Positions 1,516-21,380 of a stretch of 64,000 nucleotides of DNA are shown in pieces. A program made the position numbers and the translations under genes. The notes beneath the pieces were generated by a model. It was given only the letters and a program-made list of their open reading frames with translations, was not told where the DNA came from and did no database searches. Source of the stretch: Tubulanus polymorphus (taxonomy: Eukaryota; Nemertea; Palaeonemertea; Tubulaniformes; Tubulanidae); the NCBI RefSeq assembly GCF_964204645.1, contig NC_134025.1:12219001-12283000 (forward strand), written 5' to 3'. How positions within the stretch are numbered: position 1 is the first letter of the stretch; each line of letters starts with the position of its first letter.

Positions 1516-3228
1516 TGTCCGGCTTTAAGTAAAAAAACTCTTAAAAGATAATTTGATGATTATTTACAGTTATGCTGTAAATATACCATATAGTTACTGT
1601 AGAGTGCATAGCTACTAAGTTGTAAGATTTACATCATGCATAAGTCACTGATGATGGAGGTCATTAATATCGTTTTTTTCCTAGAGCAGGCAAAGAAATG
1701 CATTACGTTTTATACATGATGGAACTGAAACCATTTTTGTGACTGGTTTGTGGCGGATATCATCGCCGAAATCTACATCAATAACACCCACCAACAAAAC
1801 TGGATCGAATCTAGGATCCCTACTTTAACGCATCAGCCACGACGTAGAGTTTTCCCTTTCTATATCGTATTTCGAAATCAAAATCCTGAGTTAACACGAG
1901 TTAGACCAGTCAAATCGGTCCGTACCTAGTCCGGTCCAAACTTAGACCAGACGAAATTTTGAGCCTTCACATGGCGTTTTTACACGCGTCGATAAAATCG
2001 CTTGTCACAGGGCCCACAAGATATCGCCATGGGTATTCTAAGTTCGATAAAACCTGCTGAATAATTAACTGGACCTGGATGAAGTCTAGCTTCAGATTCC
2101 AAGTAGATCATGCGTTCTTCATGTGACAGTAGCTGAACGGTTTCCTGTCCAGATCACTGGATGCCCGAAATAACAAATCGAAAACACTATTAGCTCCGGT
2201 ATCAAGTTGTGGTTTTTATTCGACAATTTGCAAGTACAACGGAATTCCTTGTTTAAAAATCAATAAGGCAGGCACACACTGAGAGTTTGGTAACTAAATG
2301 ATGGACGAACATCGAAAAGCAATAACGGGAAAAGAAAAGAATAACGGAAAGAAAAGAAAGGGGGAGAGAAAAGACCTTGAAATATAATTAGAAATACAAT
2401 TAACTTATCACTGGTAAAACTGGTGGAGGCAACGTTCCAAAAACCCCAAAATTTGTGTAACTAACTGGCTGCACCGTTGAATACAAATACTTAATGTTAA
2501 TTGATATTTCCCCTAGTTAAAATAAGTGAAACCCAAGTATTAAGTTTAAACTCACCAGAAAGAGATTGATATAAAAGCTCCTAGGGAAAAATGGGAGGGG
2601 AAGAGACTTCCCACACACGTCTGCTCCAAGAAAGTTCTAAAAACTGTGTGTCAAATAAAACATCTACATGTAGGCCAAATAAAACTATATATCCCAGCAG
2701 GGGATATTCCAAATTACTAAAATCCTGCACCTCCACAAGTCTTACCAGGGACCATCGATCCAAGTCATGTCATTACCAACAATGCGGCGCATCGACCTCT
2801 GCTCATGCGCGCAACAATAGGCCGCGCTCGAGTCGACGGCTGACTGAGTTTCTATAGACCAACGAACTTCAAATCGCTGTGCTAGATTCCTGTTTGTTCC
2901 TTTTGATAAACGGTTTTCGACATCATTTACCAGACACCTTCAGTTATATGCTGCAAAAATATCATTAAGTTGCCAGAATATTTAATCCCTTCACTTTTTG
3001 AAAACAATTTTTAATTTGGATCTTGTTCAAAAGTGCCTATTGCGTAACGCGCAAGCGTGGTCGGGTTGTTTTCACGAGATGCAAGGCTAAATTAGAAAAT
3101 CAATACAGAAATAAAGTTTTCGACGAGTACAAGTATATGAAAAATCCTACTCTGTGGTACTAAACACAAGCAGGTGCCTTTAAAAAAGTTCCCTTCACTT
3201 TTACCCTGAAAAATTTAGAAAAAAATCA
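1516..3228. other. intergenic stretch without recognised gene
   Basis: About 1.7 kb with only short, unconvincing open frames on either strand. I see no repeat structure or protein similarity that I can support. Confidence 0.5.
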
Positions 3229-3298
3229 GAGCGCGATGCGGACGCGAACTACTAACCTCCCGCTTTGAAACCAATCGCTCTACCCACTGTGCCATTAC
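3229..3298 (-). repeat. tRNA-like sequence, probable SINE head or tRNA pseudogene
   Basis: Read on the minus strand, the segment has an A-box-like TGGCACAGTGGGTAGAGCG followed about 35 bases later by a B-box-like AGTTCGCGTCC. These are the spacing and order of a type 2 RNA polymerase III promoter inside a tRNA. The T-arm and acceptor pairing look too degenerate for a working tRNA, so a tRNA-derived SINE is more likely. Confidence 0.45.
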
Positions 3299-4083
3299 GT
3301 GTGCTTGTCTTCTGACCCAAATTTATTATCACTTTTGTTTGTATTTCTAAATCTTGTTCCAGGTTATTGCATAATACCAGCTCTCTGGCTACCTTGGCTC
3401 GGGGCGAAGCCAAAACAAAACAGCGGGCGGGATCCCGGGTATCATGGATGTGTAAACTGCGGTTTACTCCGCTCGATTATTGAAATATTTTTTTTAGTGA
3501 CAAACAATTTAAGGATCGTACCAACTCGGCGGATATCACCGTCGACACATTTTTACATTCCCGGGCAAAAGATCCAACTTGAGGGAGTCTACTGTACGTC
3601 CATAACAATTAAGAACAATCTTTGAAGCTACTATGGGTGGGACATGCGGTGCCTTGATTGATAATCCTTGATAAGTATCCTTGATTGAATTTTTAAAGAT
3701 CCTGAATGAAGACGACAGCAGCTTTCAGCCGTGAGAACCAATTTTTCAGCGAAAAGAAAACGAGAAAAAGATCCCTTTCTGCGGACAACTGTATAAAAAA
3801 CTGAGATCTATTAAAAGATTTTTCAATCTATTCTTTATTACGAAAATCAATGCTGTAATAACATATATAAAAAAAGACTAACAAAAACAAATTCGGAACA
3901 CATTTACATTGCACATTTCAAAGTACTTAGGACGGTATGAAGTGTAAATACACCAATAACACCACATAGGCATTGGATAATAGGTGCTTTATATATATCA
4001 ACAGTGATACCCTTTTTAGGAAACAGGCTCCAATATATATATGTAGATAATTCACTGGGAATATCACCAACAAAAACTACATC
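3299..4083. other. intergenic / 3' flank of the transposase-like gene
   Basis: There is no credible gene. A minus-strand AATAAA at about 3833-3838 could serve as poly(A) signal for the transposase-like ORF at 4208-6727. Positions 3997-4034 are a reverse-complement copy of part of that ORF (see the inverted repeat entry). Confidence 0.4.
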
Positions 4084-4366
4084 AGGCTCCGGTTTTATAG
4101 ACTGATATTAGCTTTAACCCAGGGGTTAACTCAATTGAAAACGAACTTTAGTTAGCCCCTGGGTTAAAGTTAATTAAAACAAGTTTATAAAACTGGCCCC
4201 CCGAGGTCTACTGACCAGCCAATTCTCTCCGCATCAATAAAATACTTTTGAGCCTGTCATAGTTTCTAGCATTTGTTTTGAAACCTAGTTTCTGAAGCTC
4301 CGACTTAACACCCTCTACAGTTGAAGGAATTGGAGCCTGTTTCCTAAAAAGGGTATCACTGTTGAT
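3997..4366. repeat. 38-bp perfect inverted repeat across the 3' end of the transposase-like ORF
   Basis: Positions 3997-4034 are the exact reverse complement of 4329-4366. The right arm lies inside the transposase-like ORF near its C-terminus; the left arm lies ~175 bp beyond its stop codon. All 38 bases match, so the duplication is recent or constrained. The loop of ~294 bp holds the stop codon and a palindromic MITE. Confidence 0.85.
4084..4201. mobile_element. short palindromic MITE
   Basis: The ends read GGCTCCGGTTTTATAGACT on the left and AGTTTATAAAACTGGCCCC on the right, an imperfect inverted repeat. The inner arms pair better: 20 bases around 4115 (CTTTAACCCAGGGGTTAACT) are complementary to the segment around 4151 with one mismatch. 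Nearly the whole 118 bp folds into one hairpin, and it carries no ORF. Confidence 0.6.
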
Positions 4367-6727
4367 TTCATCCAAAATTTTGCGTTTTTTATTTTGAGCT
4401 CTGCTTTTTTTTTCCTCGTCCCAAAGTTTCGTATTTTCTTTAGAATATTTTCTCTTTTTTCTCTGGTGACCTTCCTTATTTAAATACTCGATACGCTTCA
4501 ATACTGTAAGAGCATCTTTTGGTCCATCACTACGGTTTGATTTTGACATATTAATTGACTTAACTACGTCATTTAATTTCTCAATACTTTGACCACTGTA
4601 TCTACTAATGGGCCCGTGCTCTTTTATCAAAAACGGAACGTGGTACAAGAGTACATGCATATAGGGCGTCACATTGGCCTTTTTATACCCTTTGCGTTTA
4701 CTGCCTAACGACAGAAATAAATTCACAAATGATTTAGCTTTTTCAAAACAAGACAGATGATTGTGGATATCAGTGCCACCGGTACTAGTTATATACGAAT
4801 GCAGAGAAATAAAATCAGCCCACAATTTAAGGACATCAGTCATTGTATCTTCATGCATGATTTTAGAAGTTGATAGTTTGTCTGGAAGTTGATTAAACAA
4901 TTTCTTAAATTCCGACCCTTGCAAAGAGCTCCATTCTAATTTTCCAGTTCCTTTCAATGTGACTGGATCACGGACCTCCCATATATGGAACACTACACCA
5001 CATTCTTGAATCAATCTTACAAGTCCATGCAAATTTTGACCAATGACTGATGCACTTAAATCGCGGGCAAATGATGCTTCATCGTCTACATCTTTGATAT
5101 CGAAGATTAGATTTCTCAGGAGAACATCTCCAACCCTGAGAAGTAAATGCAGTTCATCAACTACTAGATTTTTCATATCCACTGAAAACAAAGGTAATCT
5201 CTCCACACAAAATTGTGATCTCAAGGCGTCATCGCATAAGTTTTCATGCGTTCTTGCGATATAATCATTGTGGTAGAAGTCCCATGCTTTTGAAGTATCA
5301 TATCGATCATCTTGTGATACCTTACACCACGGACATGAATATTTTGCCGTAGAACCTTTTAATCCTAGAAACATTTGAATAAATTTCAAGTCGCCACCTA
5401 AAAGTATATTAATCTCATAAGTTTTCCCATCAATATCTATCTGTTTTGATGATATTAAATCATTAATTTCATCTATGAGGGGTTTCAAACCAGTTTTGAA
5501 ATTTTCATACGACTCAGAACCTTTTAATATGCCAAGTGCTATGGGCTTGTCAGGTAGTCCTGCATTTAGGAAATTAAACGCCACCGTAATAAAATTACTT
5601 GTCTTTGTCATACGTGCGCCATCGCCACTAATGCGAATTTCAATCTTTTTACTCGAATCCAAATTTTCTTTTTCAATTTTGCTGCAAATGGCCTCTTTCA
5701 AGCTAACATATGCACCAGGAATGCCCCCTTCAGCCCTATATATCGAGAAAATTTTGTTGAGAGATTCGCGGCATTGTACGATTAAACTGTTAGATGGTAA
5801 ACTCCCAGAGTTAAGCATAGATATTTCATGATACGCAGCATCACTGACACATAAACTATCTAAGACGTACAATAAATCCTGAATTCTGCTTTTATCCATA
5901 TCTGATAATTTATCAAATGATTTCTTGCTACTACTTTCTTCATCAAAATCTAATCTAAACTTCTGATTCTGATCACAAGAATCTCTAAAAGTTAAAGTTT
6001 CAGGAATCAAACCAAACGATTCTGCAAACCAAAGGGCCCGCTCAGCTTCATCCTTGAGGATTTTCAACTTCCTGTTGACTTGACTCTTCGACAAATCTTT
6101 AAACGCTTTACCACTATTGGTAATGCTAGGTTTTTGATACATAGTTTGAATGTAGTTTTTCAAATTTCTGTCAAGTTTGTCAATAGTTTCACATTTTTTT
6201 TCTAGTGTGTTTTCAAGATATTGATTTTTCTGCAGCACACCCTGTAATTTTGAGGAAAGTGATGACAACTTTTCCACAAGGTTCTGATTCTCTGAAACTA
6301 TATTTGACAGATATTCACTAATATGTGCTACGTTTAAGACTTCATCACTATGAATTGCAAGAGAATGAACTATACCTTGAAATTTTTGAAATTTCTTTCC
6401 ACCTTTATACAACTTATCTTTCCTAAACTTCAAGCATACACTGCTGCACAGATCGTGCAATCTATTCTCAACACGAAATGCATAATCAGAAATTTTGGCA
6501 TATTTCAAGCCAATGTTAACCATAGAAATATAACTTAAATTTTCATGAGATCTTTTTAACCCATTTAGTTCACGTAAAAATGCATTGCTTAACTTCAATA
6601 TAAACGCGATAGGTGTACTATTTATACACCGCTTTGTATCGACATATCCAACAGTTGATAACTGAATCTCTAATGCCTGGTGAAATTTAATTTCACAGTA
6701 ACTACCACGAACTAAATTGTCAGACAT
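4208..6727 (-). CDS. DDE transposase-like protein with RAG1-type catalytic and zinc-ligand spacing
   Basis: An uninterrupted 839-codon ORF starts at the ATG at 6727 (MSDNLV); the frame is open about 125 bp further upstream but has no other ATG. It is probably a cut-and-paste transposase or a domesticated one, acting on DNA in the nucleus. Seen: a helical, coiled-coil-like stretch at about residues 145-200; Asp369 in ISGDGARM; Asp446 in LGGDLKF; Cys465 and Cys468 in CPWCK; His691 and His696 in MHVLLYHV; Glu716 in QSIEKLND; and a Lys/Arg-rich tail. The distances Asp446 to Cys465 (+19), Cys to Cys (+3), His to His (+5) and His to Glu (+20) equal those between D708, C727, C730, H937, H942 and E962 of mouse RAG1. 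The first Asp to second Asp gap is shorter (77 versus 108). Many eukaryotic transposase superfamilies share a CxxC/HxH insert, so membership in the RAG/Transib group is inference. No flanking terminal inverted repeats or target duplication were found. Confidence 0.8.
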   Translation of the reverse strand: MSDNLVRGSYCEIKFHQALEIQLSTVGYVDTKRCINSTPIAFILKLSNAFLRELNGLKRSHENLSYISMVNIGLKYAKISDYAFRVENRLHDLCSSVCLKFRKDKLYKGGKKFQKFQGIVHSLAIHSDEVLNVAHISEYLSNIVSENQNLVEKLSSLSSKLQGVLQKNQYLENTLEKKCETIDKLDRNLKNYIQTMYQKPSITNSGKAFKDLSKSQVNRKLKILKDEAERALWFAESFGLIPETLTFRDSCDQNQKFRLDFDEESSSKKSFDKLSDMDKSRIQDLLYVLDSLCVSDAAYHEISMLNSGSLPSNSLIVQCRESLNKIFSIYRAEGGIPGAYVSLKEAICSKIEKENLDSSKKIEIRISGDGARMTKTSNFITVAFNFLNAGLPDKPIALGILKGSESYENFKTGLKPLIDEINDLISSKQIDIDGKTYEINILLGGDLKFIQMFLGLKGSTAKYSCPWCKVSQDDRYDTSKAWDFYHNDYIARTHENLCDDALRSQFCVERLPLFSVDMKNLVVDELHLLLRVGDVLLRNLIFDIKDVDDEASFARDLSASVIGQNLHGLVRLIQECGVVFHIWEVRDPVTLKGTGKLEWSSLQGSEFKKLFNQLPDKLSTSKIMHEDTMTDVLKLWADFISLHSYITSTGGTDIHNHLSCFEKAKSFVNLFLSLGSKRKGYKKANVTPYMHVLLYHVPFLIKEHGPISRYSGQSIEKLNDVVKSINMSKSNRSDGPKDALTVLKRIEYLNKEGHQRKKRKYSKENTKLWDEEKKSRAQNKKRKILDEINSDTLFRKQAPIPSTVEGVKSELQKLGFKTNARNYDRLKSILLMRRELAGQ

Positions 6728-6728
6728 C

Positions 6729-6975
6729 TTTAACCCTTTCAGTGCAGAATAAGTAATACCTGAAAGTACTGGAGATAATTTAAAACTTTTCAAAAATTCA
6801 ACACTAATGGGTAGAGTGTCTACACCGCGACGCAGTGTATCGTTAGTTACTGATATTCACTATGTTTGCTGCAGTCATTTATTAGATATAAATTACGTCG
6901 GGCTGCGGTGTACTCGCTAAGTCTTTCAGCAATTTATACACCGAACTGCAGTATAGATGCACTGAAAGGGTTAAA
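6729..6975. mobile_element. 247-bp hairpin element at the 5' edge of the transposase-like ORF
   Basis: Positions 6729-6746 (TTTAACCCTTTCAGTGCA) are perfectly repeated in inverse orientation at 6958-6975. A second inner inverted pair, TACACCGC near 6820 and GCGGTGTA near 6905, makes a nested hairpin. The left arm ends one base before the ATG of the transposase-like gene, so the element may supply its leader or promoter. No target duplication is obvious. Confidence 0.6.
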
Positions 6976-7096
6976 ATAATTATTTCCTATGGGCAGCTAG
7001 TTCTTTAAAGACTTAAAAATAAAAACTAACGGAATGTCTAAAAAGAAAAAGACAGCTAAAACAGTCAAAGTACAGTATTATTGTAAAAACAGTCAT

Positions 7097-8399
7097 TCAA
7101 AGAGTTAATTTGTCACATGCACGGGACACAGCAGTGAATACGATGACTTCTTTAGGTTGCTGCTTTCCACGTTTCAATTCTCCATCTTGGACATAATATA
7201 TTGGACGAGTGAAGCTAAGCCTTGGACGTATCTTCACTGGAAATGTTAGTTTTACTCCCTGCCCGTGTTTGTCCAAAACATAATACCAATTGACATCCAA
7301 CGATAAATTCTCGAAATCAGCCAATTCGAGACTAATAAATCCTTTTTCGCATGGGTTACCTTTACGATAAAACACCGAACGATAAACATCCAGAGGAAAT
7401 GGAATTGTGATGGTCAAGTTGCCCTCCAATAATTTTGAGCGTATATGCGACATGAAGACATCTGCTACCTCTAATATTTTCGATTGGTCCACAGCAGGAT
7501 TCTTAAAATTGTCAAGAATTTCTTTTGGTATGTGGTGCTTTGGTTCCCATGTACTTTCGTGAAGATTGTAGTGTTGCCAATGGACGAGATACTGAAAATT
7601 AAAGATTTTTCAAAGCATGAATTAAAAAAAAAACAAGAAACTAATAGGCTATCGCTCTTTGTCAAAAGAGGGGTTGAATAGAGTCGTTCAAGACTGTCAC
7701 ATTGTCAATTACCCTTCTTGTCAAAATGGTATGCATGGTCATTGTAAACAGTATTTAAAATGAGTAGGCCTAGGTACCGACTTGACCTGACTCTTAGTCT
7801 TGACACATGGCTTTTAGGACATCTAGATTTAGGCCCGTGACGACCTTACCGACCTATTACATTGTCAATGTACAAAATCTCAAAATCATTTTCTGCCGAC
7901 ATTTTGAGACAGTCGGCAACGCAAAATTTAACATTTTTTCTGAAGCTGGTTCACACTCTGTCAGAATGCCTACTCGACCCGGTAAAAAGTAGCCTAAGCC
8001 TACCTACCCTAGTGTAGTATGGATAGAGGCTGACCGGTATTGTTTTCGTAGGAATGATATATAATAGCTTTTAGAGGGATAGCCTAATTAGGATAGTGGT
8101 GCGATACACGTACATTTTTAGGCTCCTAGGGCAGGCTGTTGTTGTTTAGTTAGGTTGATTTATGAATTTTGTCTAACGAAACTTACTTCCTCGGTTGATT
8201 CCTTGTATGTTATCAGGCGCTTGATTATATACCACCCCTCTAGAATATCCCTGTGCTTTCTTTGTGGTTCTCGTTGATATCTAACAGCTTCTCCATTAGC
8301 TAAGCGTTTAAAGTCGATCTTCTTGTTACGTAAATTGTACGGAGACTGATCGGTCTGATCGCTCGACGCGAGTAACCGGGGTAACCGGGGCGCAGCCAT
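7097..8399 (-). CDS. chromodomain protein, two exons, 235 aa
   Basis: Exon 1 is 8399-8187 and starts at an ATG in good context (AAAG before ATGG). Its donor is GTAAGT at 8186-8181. Exon 2 is 7591-7097, with acceptor TTTTCAG just above 7591. The join is in phase 0 and gives 71 + 164 codons. Residues ~55-101 form a chromodomain: GWYIIKRL, then across the join YLVHWQHYNLHESTWEP and a closing helix KEILDNFKN. Likely methyl-lysine cage residues Tyr57, Trp76 and Tyr79 are present, by comparison with HP1. The N-terminus is basic (SPYNLRNKKIDFKRL). The ~135-residue C-terminal part is rich in beta-strand-like text and is not recognised. The gene lies 370 bp upstream of, and on the same strand as, the transposase-like ORF, so it could be its transposon-borne partner or an unrelated neighbour. 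Confidence 0.75.
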
Positions 8400-8526
8400 C
8401 TTTGAACAGCGCGCTCGTAGCGGTGACTGGGAAAATCAATATGCGCCGTATTGTTGGTAATGAAGCAAAATGCTCCAGTAACCCAGGATGAGCAGTAACC
8501 TGGACATCTCTGCTAAAAATCAGCAA

Positions 8527-10619: not shown

Positions 10620-12156
10620 GACAAATGTGCAACAAATAAGATGATAGAGTACTCTGAAACCGGAACCAGAATGGTGATGCCCTACTGCTGACCAAACGCG
10701 ACTAGCTTACTCCAAGCCCGTTCATAGGCCTTCGCGGTTTCCATTGTCACGGCCACTGCTAATAGGCGTCTATAGTGGGCTTATACTTTCTGGTAGCCAA
10801 GACTGGGGAATCGGCGTAGGTTGAGGGTAGGCCTATGGCACTTCCACGCAAAATCGACGAAACTGGAACCGAGAAAGTAGGTCGGGTAAAATGTTATATT
10901 TACCGGGTATGTGTTCGCTAATGAAAAAACAATATTATATTTCAAACACACAGAGATCATCATAGCCTTATCTTGTGATGATTGTTTATTAATCACGTGG
11001 ACCACAGATTAGTTATCAGAATTAAAACATATATCGTAAATAAAATCGTTAAGCGATGAGCCTTCTGGGTACGATAGGTGGTGAATAACCCTAAAACCCC
11101 GGACCTTTTAGGACTACTCCTAGGGGCGAAACGTGGGTTGGGGTACCGTGCGGCATGAATGGCGTCTGAAAAGGACCCAGAACTCAACCGTTGAAAGCTC
11201 TTTGCTGACCCTTTCATGGATCACGTCGGGCGCTCCCTAGCGGACTTGAGGTTATCCATGCATTTGGTAGATGAAGGGCCCGTGAAAAAACTGTCTATGC
11301 GAAAACCAGAGGTAAAACCTTGGATAATAATGTCACGATCCTCGGCCTTGTAATCGTGAATGTACTTTCTTAGTTCGGTAAGTTTGACCAGCGTTGGCAA
11401 ATTATGATTTATAGGCCTGGTCGTTATGCTTATATCCACTCGAGGGGCCTGGCGTTTTTTTGACGCGAGCAACAAGCGGCCGAATGTGGGCCTCTGCATA
11501 ACTTGCATTGATGTGCGTATATGCAAGGTTTACGCGAACAGGATGAGGCGGCGCTATTAAATGCGTAGCAGAATTTGACCGCCTGGGCCAAAGATGCCTG
11601 AAAGGGCTGTTTCATGTTATTACTTCGAGTCTTAGCTTCCAACCACAGCTCCCAAATGAATGGTTGAATAGATTTCGCCCTCACCCACTGATCGATTGAC
11701 TTTATGGTTGTAAGCCTAAGTGTCGCTATCGATACGTGAGGCATTTCCTGACCGGGTGCGGGCAGTACGTTAAAGGAGTACGAGGCATCGAGCTTATGTG
11801 AGAGTACCGCAAAGTTGAGCCATTTCCCTGACCAAATAGTTTCTTTAATTTTATCCGGCACTAACGCATCTAATGCTACCGCAGAAGATAGGAGAAAGCC
11901 CGGTCCGCTCAACTGCGGTTGTTGAGGAATACCCATACTATCGGGTGCAATATAAGGAGATATCCCTGCTTCCGGCGTTTCCAGATCCAGAGCCTGTGGG
12001 ACGGTCTCCTGTTGAGGCGTATTTGTAGCGGTGTTTGCAGGGATGGCATGATTGACCTGAGGTAACAAAGAGACTGCTCTTTCGAGCGTCTCCAGAAGGC
12101 AGTCTGCCCGAGCCTCCTTCTGTATGCCCATTATACACAATGCAGCTATTATTTCT
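10620..12156 (-). mobile_element. deleted DIRS-type retrotransposon unit, copy 1 of a tandem pair
   Basis: In minus-strand order the unit holds: (1) a gag-like ORF (12161-11430) ending in a Cys/His-rich knuckle, CSRKPCIYAHQCKLCRGPH; (2) the start of the DIRS reverse transcriptase ORF (11526 down), with TLVKLTELRKYIHDY, IIIQGFTSGF and NLKSA, then after frameshifts FRVIHHLSYPEGSSLNDFIY; (3) a jump to the N-terminal core-binding part of a tyrosine recombinase, ETAKAYERAWSKLVAFGQQ and ILFVAHLS. The RT palm, RNase H and recombinase catalytic parts are missing, so the unit is non-autonomous. At its upstream edge the recombinase frame of copy 2 runs without a break into this gag frame. Confidence 0.75.
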
Positions 12157-13693
12157 GACAAATGTGCAACAAATAAGATGATAGAGTACTCTGAAACCGG
12201 AACCAGAATGGTGATGCCCTACTGCTGACCAAACGCGACTAGCTTACTCCAAGCCCGTTCATAGGCCTTCGCGGTTTCCATTGTCACGGCCACTGCTAAT
12301 AGGCGTCTATAGTGGGCTTATACTTTCTGGTAGCCAAGACTGGGGAATCGGCGTAGGTTGAGGGTAGGCCTATGGCACTTCCACGCAAAATCGACGAAAC
12401 TGGAACCGAGAAAGTAGGTCGGGTAAAATGTTATATTTACCGGGTATGTGTTCGCTAATGAAAAAACAATATTATATTTCAAACACACAGAGATCATCAT
12501 AGCCTTATCTTGTGATGATTGTTTATTAATCACGTGGACCACAGATTAGTTATCAGAATTAAAACATATATCGTAAATAAAATCGTTAAGCGATGAGCCT
12601 TCTGGGTACGATAGGTGGTGAATAACCCTAAAACCCCGGACCTTTTAGGACTACTCCTAGGGGCGAAACGTGGGTTGGGGTACCGTGCGGCATGAATGGC
12701 GTCTGAAAAGGACCCAGAACTCAACCGTTGAAAGCTCTTTGCTGACCCTTTCATGGATCACGTCGGGCGCTCCCTAGCGGACTTGAGGTTATCCATGCAT
12801 TTGGTAGATGAAGGGCCCGTGAAAAAACTGTCTATGCGAAAACCAGAGGTAAAACCTTGGATAATAATGTCACGATCCTCGGCCTTGTAATCGTGAATGT
12901 ACTTTCTTAGTTCGGCAAGTTTGACCAGCGTTGGCAAATTATGATTTATAGGCCTGGTCGTTATGCTTATATCCACTCGAGGGGCCTGGCGTTTTTTTGA
13001 CGCGAGCAACAAGCGGCCGAATGTGGGCCTCTGCATAACTTGCATTGATGTGCGTATATGCAAGGTTTACGCGAACAGGATGAGGCGGCGCTATTAAATG
13101 CGTAGCAGAATTTGACCGCCTGGGCCAAAGATGCCTGAAAGGGCTGTTTCATGTTATTACTTCGAGTCTTAGCTTCCAACCACAGCTCCCAAATGAATGG
13201 TTGAATAGATTTCGCCCTCACCCACTGATCGATTGACTTTATGGTTGTAAGCCTAAGTGTCGCTATCGATACGTGAGGCATTTCCTGACCGGGTGCGGGC
13301 AGTACGTTAAAGGAGTACGAGGCATCGAGCTTATGTGAGAGTACCGCAAAGTTGAGCCATTTCCCTGACCAAATAGTTTCTTTAATTTTATCCGGCACTA
13401 ACGCATCTAATGCTACCGCAGAAGATAGGAGAAAGCCCGGTCCGCTCAACTGCGGTTGTTGAGGAATACCCATACTATCGGGTGCAATATAAGGAGATAT
13501 CCCTGCTTCCGGCGTTTCCAGATCCAGAGCCTGTGGGACGGTCTCCTGTTGAGGCGTATTTGTAGCGGTGTTTGCAGGGATGGCATGATTGACCTGAGGT
13601 AACAAAGAGACTGCTCTTTCGAGCGTCTCCAGAAGGCAGTCTGCCCGAGCCTCCTTCTGTATGCCCATTATACACAATGCAGCTATTATTTCT
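12157..13693 (-). mobile_element. deleted DIRS-type retrotransposon unit, copy 2 of a tandem pair
   Basis: This repeats 10620-12156 at an offset of exactly 1,537 bp. The encoded gag (236 codons from 13677, start context differing only at the junction), RT-start (12758-13063) and recombinase fragments are the same. The only difference I saw is one base (11386 T, 12923 C), which makes KLTEL become KLAEL. Such identity means a very recent duplication, gene conversion, or an assembly artefact. Confidence 0.75.
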
Positions 13694-16439: not shown

Positions 16440-18180
16440 CTGAGAGCACTTCATAAAATTTTTTTTTTTAATGGTTCATTCTGAGTATCGACGGGTACAT
16501 GTATTATATTTCCGACAGTGATCAGATTTACATTCTACAGTACCGTTTTATTTTCGTTCATACATTCAATCACACACATAGTACTCTACCACTTTGAATA
16601 TCTTTCACCGACTAAACTTTATTACACACTATGTTAACAGGGTCATGATACGTGTCATGTTAAGTTTACATGGTTAACACCCCCACTTAAACTTTAATTC
16701 ATGTACACAATATTTTTTACTACAATTCTAATTATAAAACTAAGATAATAATTTCCTTAATAATCTTGTATATAATGTCTCAATATAGTTCAATATAATT
16801 CATACAGAAAACACTTTTGTCAAAAACTGTAATTTTGTTTTCGACACTGGCTTAGTAAGAACATCTGCTAAGTTTTCCTCTGATGGTACGTACTCTAGTT
16901 TTACAACCCCCATTCGTACTTCTTTTCTTATGAAGTGATACCTGATATCGATATGCTTGGATCTCTGATGTTGTACAGGATTGTTTGCTAAAGCTAGTGC
17001 ACCTTGATTATCGCCATACAGCAGCAAAGAATCTACATCAAAGTTCAAGTCTTTTAACAATTGTAGTAGGAACTTCCCCTCGCATATAGCTGATGCTAAA
17101 GGCATGTATTCCACTTCACATGTTGACAATGCAACAGTTGGTTGTTTTCGACTCTTCCAGGAAATGAATGAACTTTCCCCTGATAAACCAAAACAATAAC
17201 CTGTAACACTGCGTCTATCAGCTGCAGCACCCCAGTCTGCATCACAGTAACCAACTAACGATAAACTTTCTGACCTTATGAAAGTCAGACATTGATTCCT
17301 TGTGCCCTTCAAATAACGTAATACACGCTTTGCCATGCTCAGATAGAGTTCAATAGGGCAAGACATGTACTGAGATAACAAAGTTACTACCAAACACAAA
17401 TCTGGTCTGGTAGCTGTCATGATGTAAATTAGACTACCAATTATTTCTTGATACAATTTCAACTCACTGCCTTGCAATAAATTTGACTGAACTACAATCT
17501 TATTGTCCCCTATTTCACAAGGGGTTGATCTCGGTTTACAATTTTCCATCGAGAATCTGGAGAGAATTTTGTCAATATACGGTGACTGACTCATAGATAT
17601 GTAATCTTTTTCGCATTCAAATCTGATACCTAGGAACCATGATAACTTTCCGAGATCTTTCATTTGGAATCTTCTACAAAGACATTGTTTTATATCATCC
17701 AACATACGGTAATCAGTTGTAGCGAAAATGATATCATCTACCCAGATGAGTAGTATTATAATTGACTCTTCAGTGAACTTCATATATACACAATAATCAG
17801 TTCGAGACTGTGTGAACCCTTCATTTATCAAATATTTATGCAATGTTCGATTCCAATTATGACCGCTTTGTTTTAAGCCATACAGCGATTTCTGTAATTT
17901 ACAGACTAAAATTTCACCGTTTTCACCTTTAACAGAATAACCTTCCGGTCATGTTTCTGATCATCGAATTTTACACATCTAACCCTCTTTATAGCTCTAG
18001 TTTCTGGATAGTATACTAGGTACGCAGGACTACCTTTATCGTAACCTATAAATACACCTTTTTCTGACCTAGGGTCAAGCTTTCGTTTGTGTTGAACATA
18101 TGCATAACATGGTGCCCCAAAAACATGCATGTGACTCAAATTTGGCTTTCGACCAGTTAGCATTTCATATGGGGTCTGGT
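16440..18180 (-). mobile_element. Ty1/copia retrotransposon with internal deletion
   Basis: Minus-strand order: end of integrase, 18180-17945 (TPYEMLTGRKPNLSHMHVFG, then GVFIGYDKG), fused directly to the middle of reverse transcriptase (KLQKSLYGLKQSGHNWNRTL), then a 347-codon frame, 17843-16800, with the RT active site WVDDIIFA, LGKLSWFLGI and SQSPYIDKIL, and RNase H motifs YCDADWGAAADRRSVTGYCF, ALSTCEVEY, RSKHIDIRYHFI and NLADVLTKP. A purine tract (AAGTGGGGG) and TGTTAACC near 16685 mark the start of a 3' LTR, with AATAAA inside. The first half of RT is missing and the join is out of frame, so the copy is inactive. No 5' LTR was seen. Confidence 0.85.
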
Positions 18181-20600: not shown

Positions 20601-21380
20601 TCATTGGTGATGTATACGTGATCGAAAAAAAGCTTGATTTCCCTGCGCCATCGGTTGCTCCTTCCTCTGCTTAATCTCCAGCTGATCGATTCTAGTTTTC
20701 AGCTGATCCCACTCGGCGTTCGATGTTCCGATTTGACTGATACCAGGGCCATCCATCTTCATCATTTGGACTACGTTACTTGCCATTTTGATGGCTTTGT
20801 CCAGATCCTCTGGCATTTGCATCCAGACTATTTTCCGTATGTCCGCGGAGAGACCGTCAATAAATGTACTAAGTGTCACGTGCGCGGGTAATTCCAGTTC
20901 ATTCGCTCTCTGTTTAACATCGTCTGCGAAATTGTCTACTGTTTGGCCTGAAACCATGCGCATGTGTTTCAGCTGGTGAGTTTTTATTATTTTCCGATCC
21001 GGGTTATTATATCGCTGGTTAAATGCCTTTAACAAGTCATTCCACACGCGTTTCTTTTCTTTATCGACGCCTAAATACCACGATCGGGCTTCTCCCCTCA
21101 AAAACAAGGGAAAGCTCCTCAGTATCTGACGGTCAGACCATGCCATGAGTTTTACGTATTGTAGAAATGCGTCTAACCATGGTTCAGGATCATCTGTTCC
21201 GTCAAAATGTTCTGGTTTCAGCCCCCTTACGCCTTTTGGCACGATGATTATTTCATCGTCGCTATCATCTTTGTCCGCTCGTTCTACAGCTGGATTGGCT
21301 GGTCCCACGGCCGGTTGCTGTCCCGCGTTTGCCATGCACAACAGTTGTGCTTTTCTTTTAACGGGTTGGTTATAAAACAT
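20601..21380 (-). CDS. gypsy gag polyprotein, truncated by stop
   Basis: The 259-codon frame contains gag hallmarks: LKPEHFDGTDDPEPWLDAF, PLFLRGEARSWYL, WNDLLKAFNQRY, and HMRMVSGQTVDNFADDV, typical of a Ty3/gypsy capsid region. The more likely start is the internal MANAGQQ methionine. After the stop at 20601, in another frame, comes a zinc knuckle CYRCIMLGHMARNC, and then a second, CYQCGRP-stop-HIRRYC, broken by a stop. A frameshift has therefore separated capsid from nucleocapsid. Confidence 0.8.
   Translation of the reverse strand: MFYNQPVKRKAQLLCMANAGQQPAVGPANPAVERADKDDSDDEIIIVPKGVRGLKPEHFDGTDDPEPWLDAFLQYVKLMAWSDRQILRSFPLFLRGEARSWYLGVDKEKKRVWNDLLKAFNQRYNNPDRKIIKTHQLKHMRMVSGQTVDNFADDVKQRANELELPAHVTLSTFIDGLSADIRKIVWMQMPEDLDKAIKMASNVVQMMKMDGPGISQIGTSNAEWDQLKTRIDQLEIKQRKEQPMAQGNQAFFRSRIHHQ

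Follow-up and report, generated by a model that had tools for sequence, protein, structure and literature searches.

A Chapaev-related transposon of Tubulanus polymorphus whose transposase has a RAG1-type predicted fold, with unusual ends, a second gene for a chromodomain protein and apparently no target duplication

What is a long intact reading frame in a nemertean genome, whose candidate metal and zinc ligands are spaced as in RAG1? The frame, of 839 amino acids, lies in a window of 64,000 nucleotides (the whole stretch of DNA that was analysed) from Tubulanus polymorphus (NC_134025.1, positions 12,219,001 to 12,283,000), and a first-pass annotation had proposed that it may represent a sister family of the RAG/Transib transposases, either recently active or domesticated. 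It very probably encodes the DDE transposase of a cut-and-paste DNA transposon with two genes and kinship to the Chapaev/Transib/RAG1 clade, also termed CMCT (EnSpm-Mirage-Chapaev-Transib). The element is a Chapaev-related transposon that combines a RAG1-type predicted fold with unusual ends, a chromodomain partner gene and apparently no target duplication, and its family may already be deposited in Repbase. The transposon, its ends and the transposase frame have the following window positions:

2771..8462 (-): whole transposon, 5,692 bp; homology with the copy on contig C10 (L005) begins and stops here, and both borders carry inverted ends
2771..2792 (+): terminal inverted repeat CATTACCAACAATGCGGCGCAT; exact ends at the two full copies only
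8441..8462 (-): terminal inverted repeat CATTACCAACAATACGGCGCAT; exact ends at the two full copies only
4208..6727 (-): DDE transposase open reading frame, 839 amino acids (861 if counted from an upstream TTG); ATG at 6727, stop ending at 4208; RAG1/Transib fold predicted

The genome searched comprises 267.8 Mb in 77 contigs, and relatives were scored among the best 53 of 95 candidates, in another search the best 53 of 193, so that copy counts are lower bounds. The window copy and the C10 copy terminate in an identical inverted repeat (CATTACCAACAATRCGGCGCAT) of 22 bp, which begins with CAT and gives the element the ends CATTACC..GGTAATG. The C10 copy is 5,678 bp long and differs from the window copy by 17 substitutions in 5,667 aligned bases and by six gaps, a divergence of 0.3%. 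A whole-genome search for the ends with up to three mismatches returned eight matches, of which the four exact ones are all at these two full copies. Because of the near-identical C10 copy and the shared inverted repeat ends, the transposase frame is seen to sit in a recently mobile transposon, and the element is mobile DNA rather than a gene of the host. Its transposase is a single open frame in the window copy; in the C10 copy it is broken into several pieces, one of them with a stop. Decayed relatives are also present in the same genome.

Transib makes a 5-bp target duplication and has CAC ends. Terminal inverted repeats and 5-bp duplications had been named in the first-pass annotation as signs worth seeking; the former were found, the latter is absent. 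Insertion was judged from the flanks of the window copy and from three further sites:

2711..2770 (+): left flank, belonging to a dispersed repeat which contains the target site; empty copies L071, L072 and L110
8463..8522 (+): right flank, part of the same dispersed repeat; empty copies L071, L072 and L110

Four insertion sites of elements carrying these ends were readable: those of the window copy, of the C10 copy, of an element of 2.86 kb (C1:14060344-14063201) and, within a single G-rich array and counted as one site, of a pair of 493 bp (C1:25755863 and 25762299). None of the four is flanked by direct repeats as long as 2 bp; at the C10 copy and in the array a single base agrees between the two flanks. 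Empty places on contigs C5, C7 and C4 (81, 87 and 82% identical, respectively) all align without a gap across the joined window flanks (3/3), and hence the window site shows neither duplication nor loss. For the C1:14060344 element, 8 of 18 other listed places were read; seven of these span the junction, and all seven are without the ACC found at the left end of this element, which is not a repeat of its right flank. The array insertion has one extra T relative to the array unit, and the flanks of the C10 copy matched no other place in the genome than themselves. The clean case without duplication is the window site alone, the remaining junctions being irregular; the junctions could reflect joining without any stagger, or end joining that adds a little sequence. 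Loss of the duplication has a precedent, since Spy transposons of the PHIS group are described without target duplications in the relevant passage of PMC4482050. The passage on missing duplications in PMC12730594, a paper which also mentions Chapaev, concerns TET/JBP genes and not Chapaev.

The residues which define the putative active site and zinc site are distributed over the transposase as follows:

5621..5623 (-): Asp369, putative first catalytic Asp; the predicted core-model strand 168-175 terminates here
5390..5392 (-): Asp446, putative second catalytic Asp, directly after a predicted core strand and paired by HMMER with one Asp of RAG1
5324..5335 (-): Cys465 and Cys468, a C(2)C motif that lines up with the two Cys of RAG1
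4640..4657 (-): His691 and His696, an H(4)H motif that lines up with the two His of RAG1; L009/L010 have Asp in place of His696
4580..4582 (-): Glu716, putative third catalytic residue, in a long helix predicted with low confidence and aligned with the Glu of RAG1 NESGNK

On the reading frame all seven residues stand where the first-pass annotation had placed them, with intervals of 19, 3, 5 and 20. The pattern D-18-C-2-C...H-4-H-19-E occurs anywhere in only 4 of 20,000 shuffles of the protein and thus exceeds chance. Relatives preserve it, the D/C/C spacing in all nine sequences examined and the H/H/E spacing in seven of them; in the near-identical copies L009 and L010 the second His is replaced by Asp with the spacing unchanged. 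The window protein also carries the LH motif (within DELHLLL) along with C(2)C and H(4)H. The same four intervals are found in 6/6 Chapaev-type proteins examined, of many in the genome, and so they mark the clade and not RAG1: the earlier reader saw a real pattern but took a feature of the clade for one of RAG1. The distance between the two Asp residues is 77 in the window protein and 72-77 in the five Chapaev-type proteins where the search pattern located the first Asp, and this short distance points to Chapaev.

A first model of the full-length transposase, built with 23 window-family rows, reached a predicted local distance difference test score (pLDDT) of only 50.7, for which reason the core was folded with 18 rows that included Chapaev-type ones. 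The N-terminal part is predicted to be helical with low confidence. In structural comparison the predicted core matched RAG1 and Transib best, with no Chapaev structure among the matches. By profile, a resemblance to RAG1/Transib emerged once Chapaev-type rows had been added; phmmer with the window protein gave E 0.29 for RAG1. The RAG1 model of Pfam (PF12940) is not listed for the window protein at E-values up to 10; it matches one of the 18 rows of alignment A2 at 0.0053 (the row is not identified in the table), and its scan of the genome gave a single match of E 0.3, below the cut-off. The suspected resemblance to RAG1/Transib is thus supported by the predicted fold, and by profile once the Chapaev-type rows are added; a best structural match in another DDE superfamily, which would have told against it, was not seen, although Chapaev structures are absent from the matches. 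The only Pfam match of the transposase, to PUB2_N (E 0.00038; 20.9 bits against a cut-off of 29.5), lay below threshold, was taken as a coiled coil and was rejected. Two protein queries of viral contigs gave no confirmed relatives.

Among the matches scored, the window transposase is closest to its own subfamilies in the same genome (approximately 40-53% identity over the main pieces and 24-33% over the N-terminal pieces), followed by a large group at approximately 26-31%, the best E-value being 2.6e-10 (28% over residues 415-579). One member of this group, L035, matches Pfam DUF1280 at 1.6e-22. The same model is matched by 5 of the 18 rows of A2, which are unnamed in the table but presumably are the five of Chapaev type, and is not listed for the window protein at E-values up to 10. 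DUF1280 is equated with Chapaev transposases in the relevant passage of PMC3985635, which places it with RAG1 in a single clade. By sequence, the nearest kin outside the element's own family are the Chapaev-type transposases of the same genome. The insert of the window protein is without the Cys-rich PHD-like stretch present in the Chapaev-type rows. The window protein has no Pfam zinc finger among the models used, which did not include one for the N-terminal Chapa zinc finger of Chapaev.

The hallmarks of Chapaev, as given in an excerpt of PMC4079192, are a duplication of generally 3-4 bp, 'invariable' CAC..GTG ends and the motifs C(2)C, LH and H(4)H. One Chapaev-type element of the genome was delimited at 5,910 bp with the ends CACGACCGTAGGCG; its two copies that were read carry the duplications GATT and ATGC. 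A second one splits a copy of the window family, as judged from an uninterrupted sister copy, and is flanked by ACAT. As a control, therefore, all three Chapaev-type insertions read show a 4-bp duplication. It should be added that L035 (C12:10755197-10758712) and its copies on C3 and C12 make up at least five full Chapaev-type frames of approximately 100% protein identity, a family which has probably moved recently. The insert of L035 has a Cys-rich stretch resembling a PHD finger; the Pfam PHD model matches one of the 18 A2 rows at 0.0036.

Upstream of the transposase and on the same strand is a two-exon chromodomain gene, its splicing and expression being predicted only:

8187..8399 (-): exon 1, 71 codons; start codon and GTAAGT donor read from the sequence
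7592..8186 (-): predicted GT...AG intron with GTAAGT donor and TTTTCAG acceptor
7097..7591 (-): exon 2, with the chromodomain and then approximately 130 amino acids without a Pfam match

Pfam Chromo is matched by exon 2 alone at E 1.5e-7 and by the joined protein at E 3.5e-8, and a PDB search returned CDYL2-type chromodomains (E 0.0018); no kelch or PHD match was found in this protein with Pfam. Exon 2 lies next to the transposase in other subfamilies also (C12, C2/C20, C9 and C2; 39-53% identity). Exon 1 was found in the two full copies only and was not detected in those subfamilies. Four aligned exon-2 rows, from which two further rows with stops were excluded, share one invariant Trp and one invariant Tyr of the methyl-lysine cage. 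The PHD of RAG2 is a histone reader, and the element resembles RAG1-RAG2 in that its second gene encodes a histone-reader domain. Unlike RAGL, it has no RAG2-like (kelch and PHD) gene that could be seen, its partner being the chromodomain gene; its two genes are also co-oriented, whereas those of RAGL are convergent in the account of PMC7204232.

The CMCT clade is characterized, in the section of PMC12730594 concerned, by a usual target duplication of 2 to 5 bp. The window element has C(2)C and H(3-4)H between the second Asp and the Glu (Cys465-2-Cys468 and His691-4-His696) and the mostly 5'-CA..TG-3' ends of this clade, and 4/4 window-type sites lack the duplication. Its place in this clade follows from homology, from the motifs and from the CA..TG ends. 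With Transib and RAG1 it has in common the predicted catalytic core fold and the order and spacing of the DDE and zinc ligands; unlike Transib it lacks CAC ends, and its Asp-Asp distance of 77 is shorter than the 108 given in the first-pass annotation. With Chapaev (DUF1280, CMC group) it shares motifs, spacing, sequence similarity and CA..TG ends, but it begins with CAT and ends with ATG and has a chromodomain second gene. The CMCT lineages ESTA, Plavaka and Lanisha have the same Cys/His motifs and diverse ends and duplications; as far as these are described in PMC12730594, the 2-bp (TA) duplication of ESTA and the 2-3 bp one of Plavaka set both apart from the window element; that of Lanisha was not seen. 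Spy is likewise a cut-and-paste DDE element without target duplication, but it belongs to another transposase superfamily (PHIS) and prefers AAATTT. As Chapaev, Transib and RAGL each have a tested hallmark that failed, the element is not filed under any of them.

Other readings of these data were weighed. That the element is an ordinary Chapaev, whose 3-4 bp duplications have been erased at the few observed sites through mutation, inter-copy recombination or gene conversion, would fit its kinship to Chapaev by sequence and the fact that only four insertion sites are readable, two of them with odd junction bases. Against this stand the gapless flanks at the window site, the 0.3% between the full copies, which makes mutational loss unlikely, and ends that depart from those called 'invariable' in the PMC4079192 excerpt; we regard this reading as rather unlikely. 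The view of the first-pass annotation, a true sister family nearer to Transib/RAG1 than to Chapaev, draws on the best structural matches and on the insert without a Chapaev-type Cys-rich stretch. However, no Chapaev structure was there to compete among those matches, the Chapaev-type rows reach E 2.6e-10 against 0.29 for RAG1 (phmmer; from different databases and only roughly comparable), the Asp-Asp distance lies within the Chapaev-type range and the 5-bp duplication is absent. The likeness in fold is supported and the supposed closeness to RAG1 over Chapaev is not, Chapaev-type proteins being nearest by sequence, and we consider such a sister family improbable. A domesticated host gene of transposase origin might be read from the long intact frame but is scarcely credible, as it is already contradicted by the inverted ends, the near-identical copy at another locus and the decayed relatives; recent activity, the other option raised at the outset, agrees with the copy diverged by 0.3%.

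In the preferred reading, that of a two-gene transposon of the CMCT clade, the transposase would bind the inverted ends and its Asp369/Asp446/Glu716 metal site, in an RNase H fold, would cut the DNA, with the helical insert tied by the Cys465/Cys468/His691/His696 zinc site as in RAG1. The element would probably be freed by double-strand breaks, and both ends would be joined to target phosphates that lie opposite, or nearly opposite, each other, leaving no duplication. The chromodomain protein would bind methylated histone tails and probably steer or protect the transposition complex. More tentatively, as a possibility we hold somewhat short of probable, the element may represent a separate lineage of the RAG1/Transib/Chapaev clade that has abandoned target duplication, joining its ends to blunt or repaired breaks and guided by its own histone-methyl reader; a RAG1-like nuclease would then have been paired with a chromatin reader a second time and independently, in parallel to RAG1-RAG2. 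If more insertions confirm it, this would be RAG1-clade integration without a staggered target cut, in a genome shared with Chapaev-type relatives that duplicate 4 bp, and a comparison of the two could then test what in the structure causes target stagger. The chromodomain gene carried by the element is a parallel to the PHD with which RAG2 reads histones, and is relevant to the question of why chromatin readers are gained by RAG-like nucleases.

With regard to the other subfamilies, the apparent borders of L009 have TAAGT as their only inverted repeat, and other copies of this C12 subfamily (L009-L012) extend beyond them; element ends were sought for the L014, L015 and L019 subfamilies and not found. 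Repeats with CATTGGCAACAATGCG were rejected, since the five places read match one another from the first fetched bases and the sequence is thus internal to another repeat. The C2 copy L014 is enclosed by 1.27-kb inverted repeats, 93% alike (L104/L105, C2:12172800-12182300), and perhaps lies inside a larger mobile element.

Within the window element, a strong hairpin at 4107-4174 just past the transposase stop (DNA fold z -5.6 for 3990-4180) may be a small inverted-repeat element nested in the transposon, or else a signal at the end of the gene. In addition, 38 bp of the C-terminal coding region of the transposase (4329-4366) are repeated exactly, inverted, at 3997-4034, downstream of the stop. 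Elsewhere in the window, two near-identical frames of 243 and 236 amino acids with a Cys-rich end (11430-12161 and 12967-13677), approximately 1.5 kb apart, are perhaps a tandem duplication of a mobile-element gene, and frames at 16800-17843 and 20601-21380 resemble, by eye, a Copia-type reverse transcriptase/RNase H and a gag-like protein.
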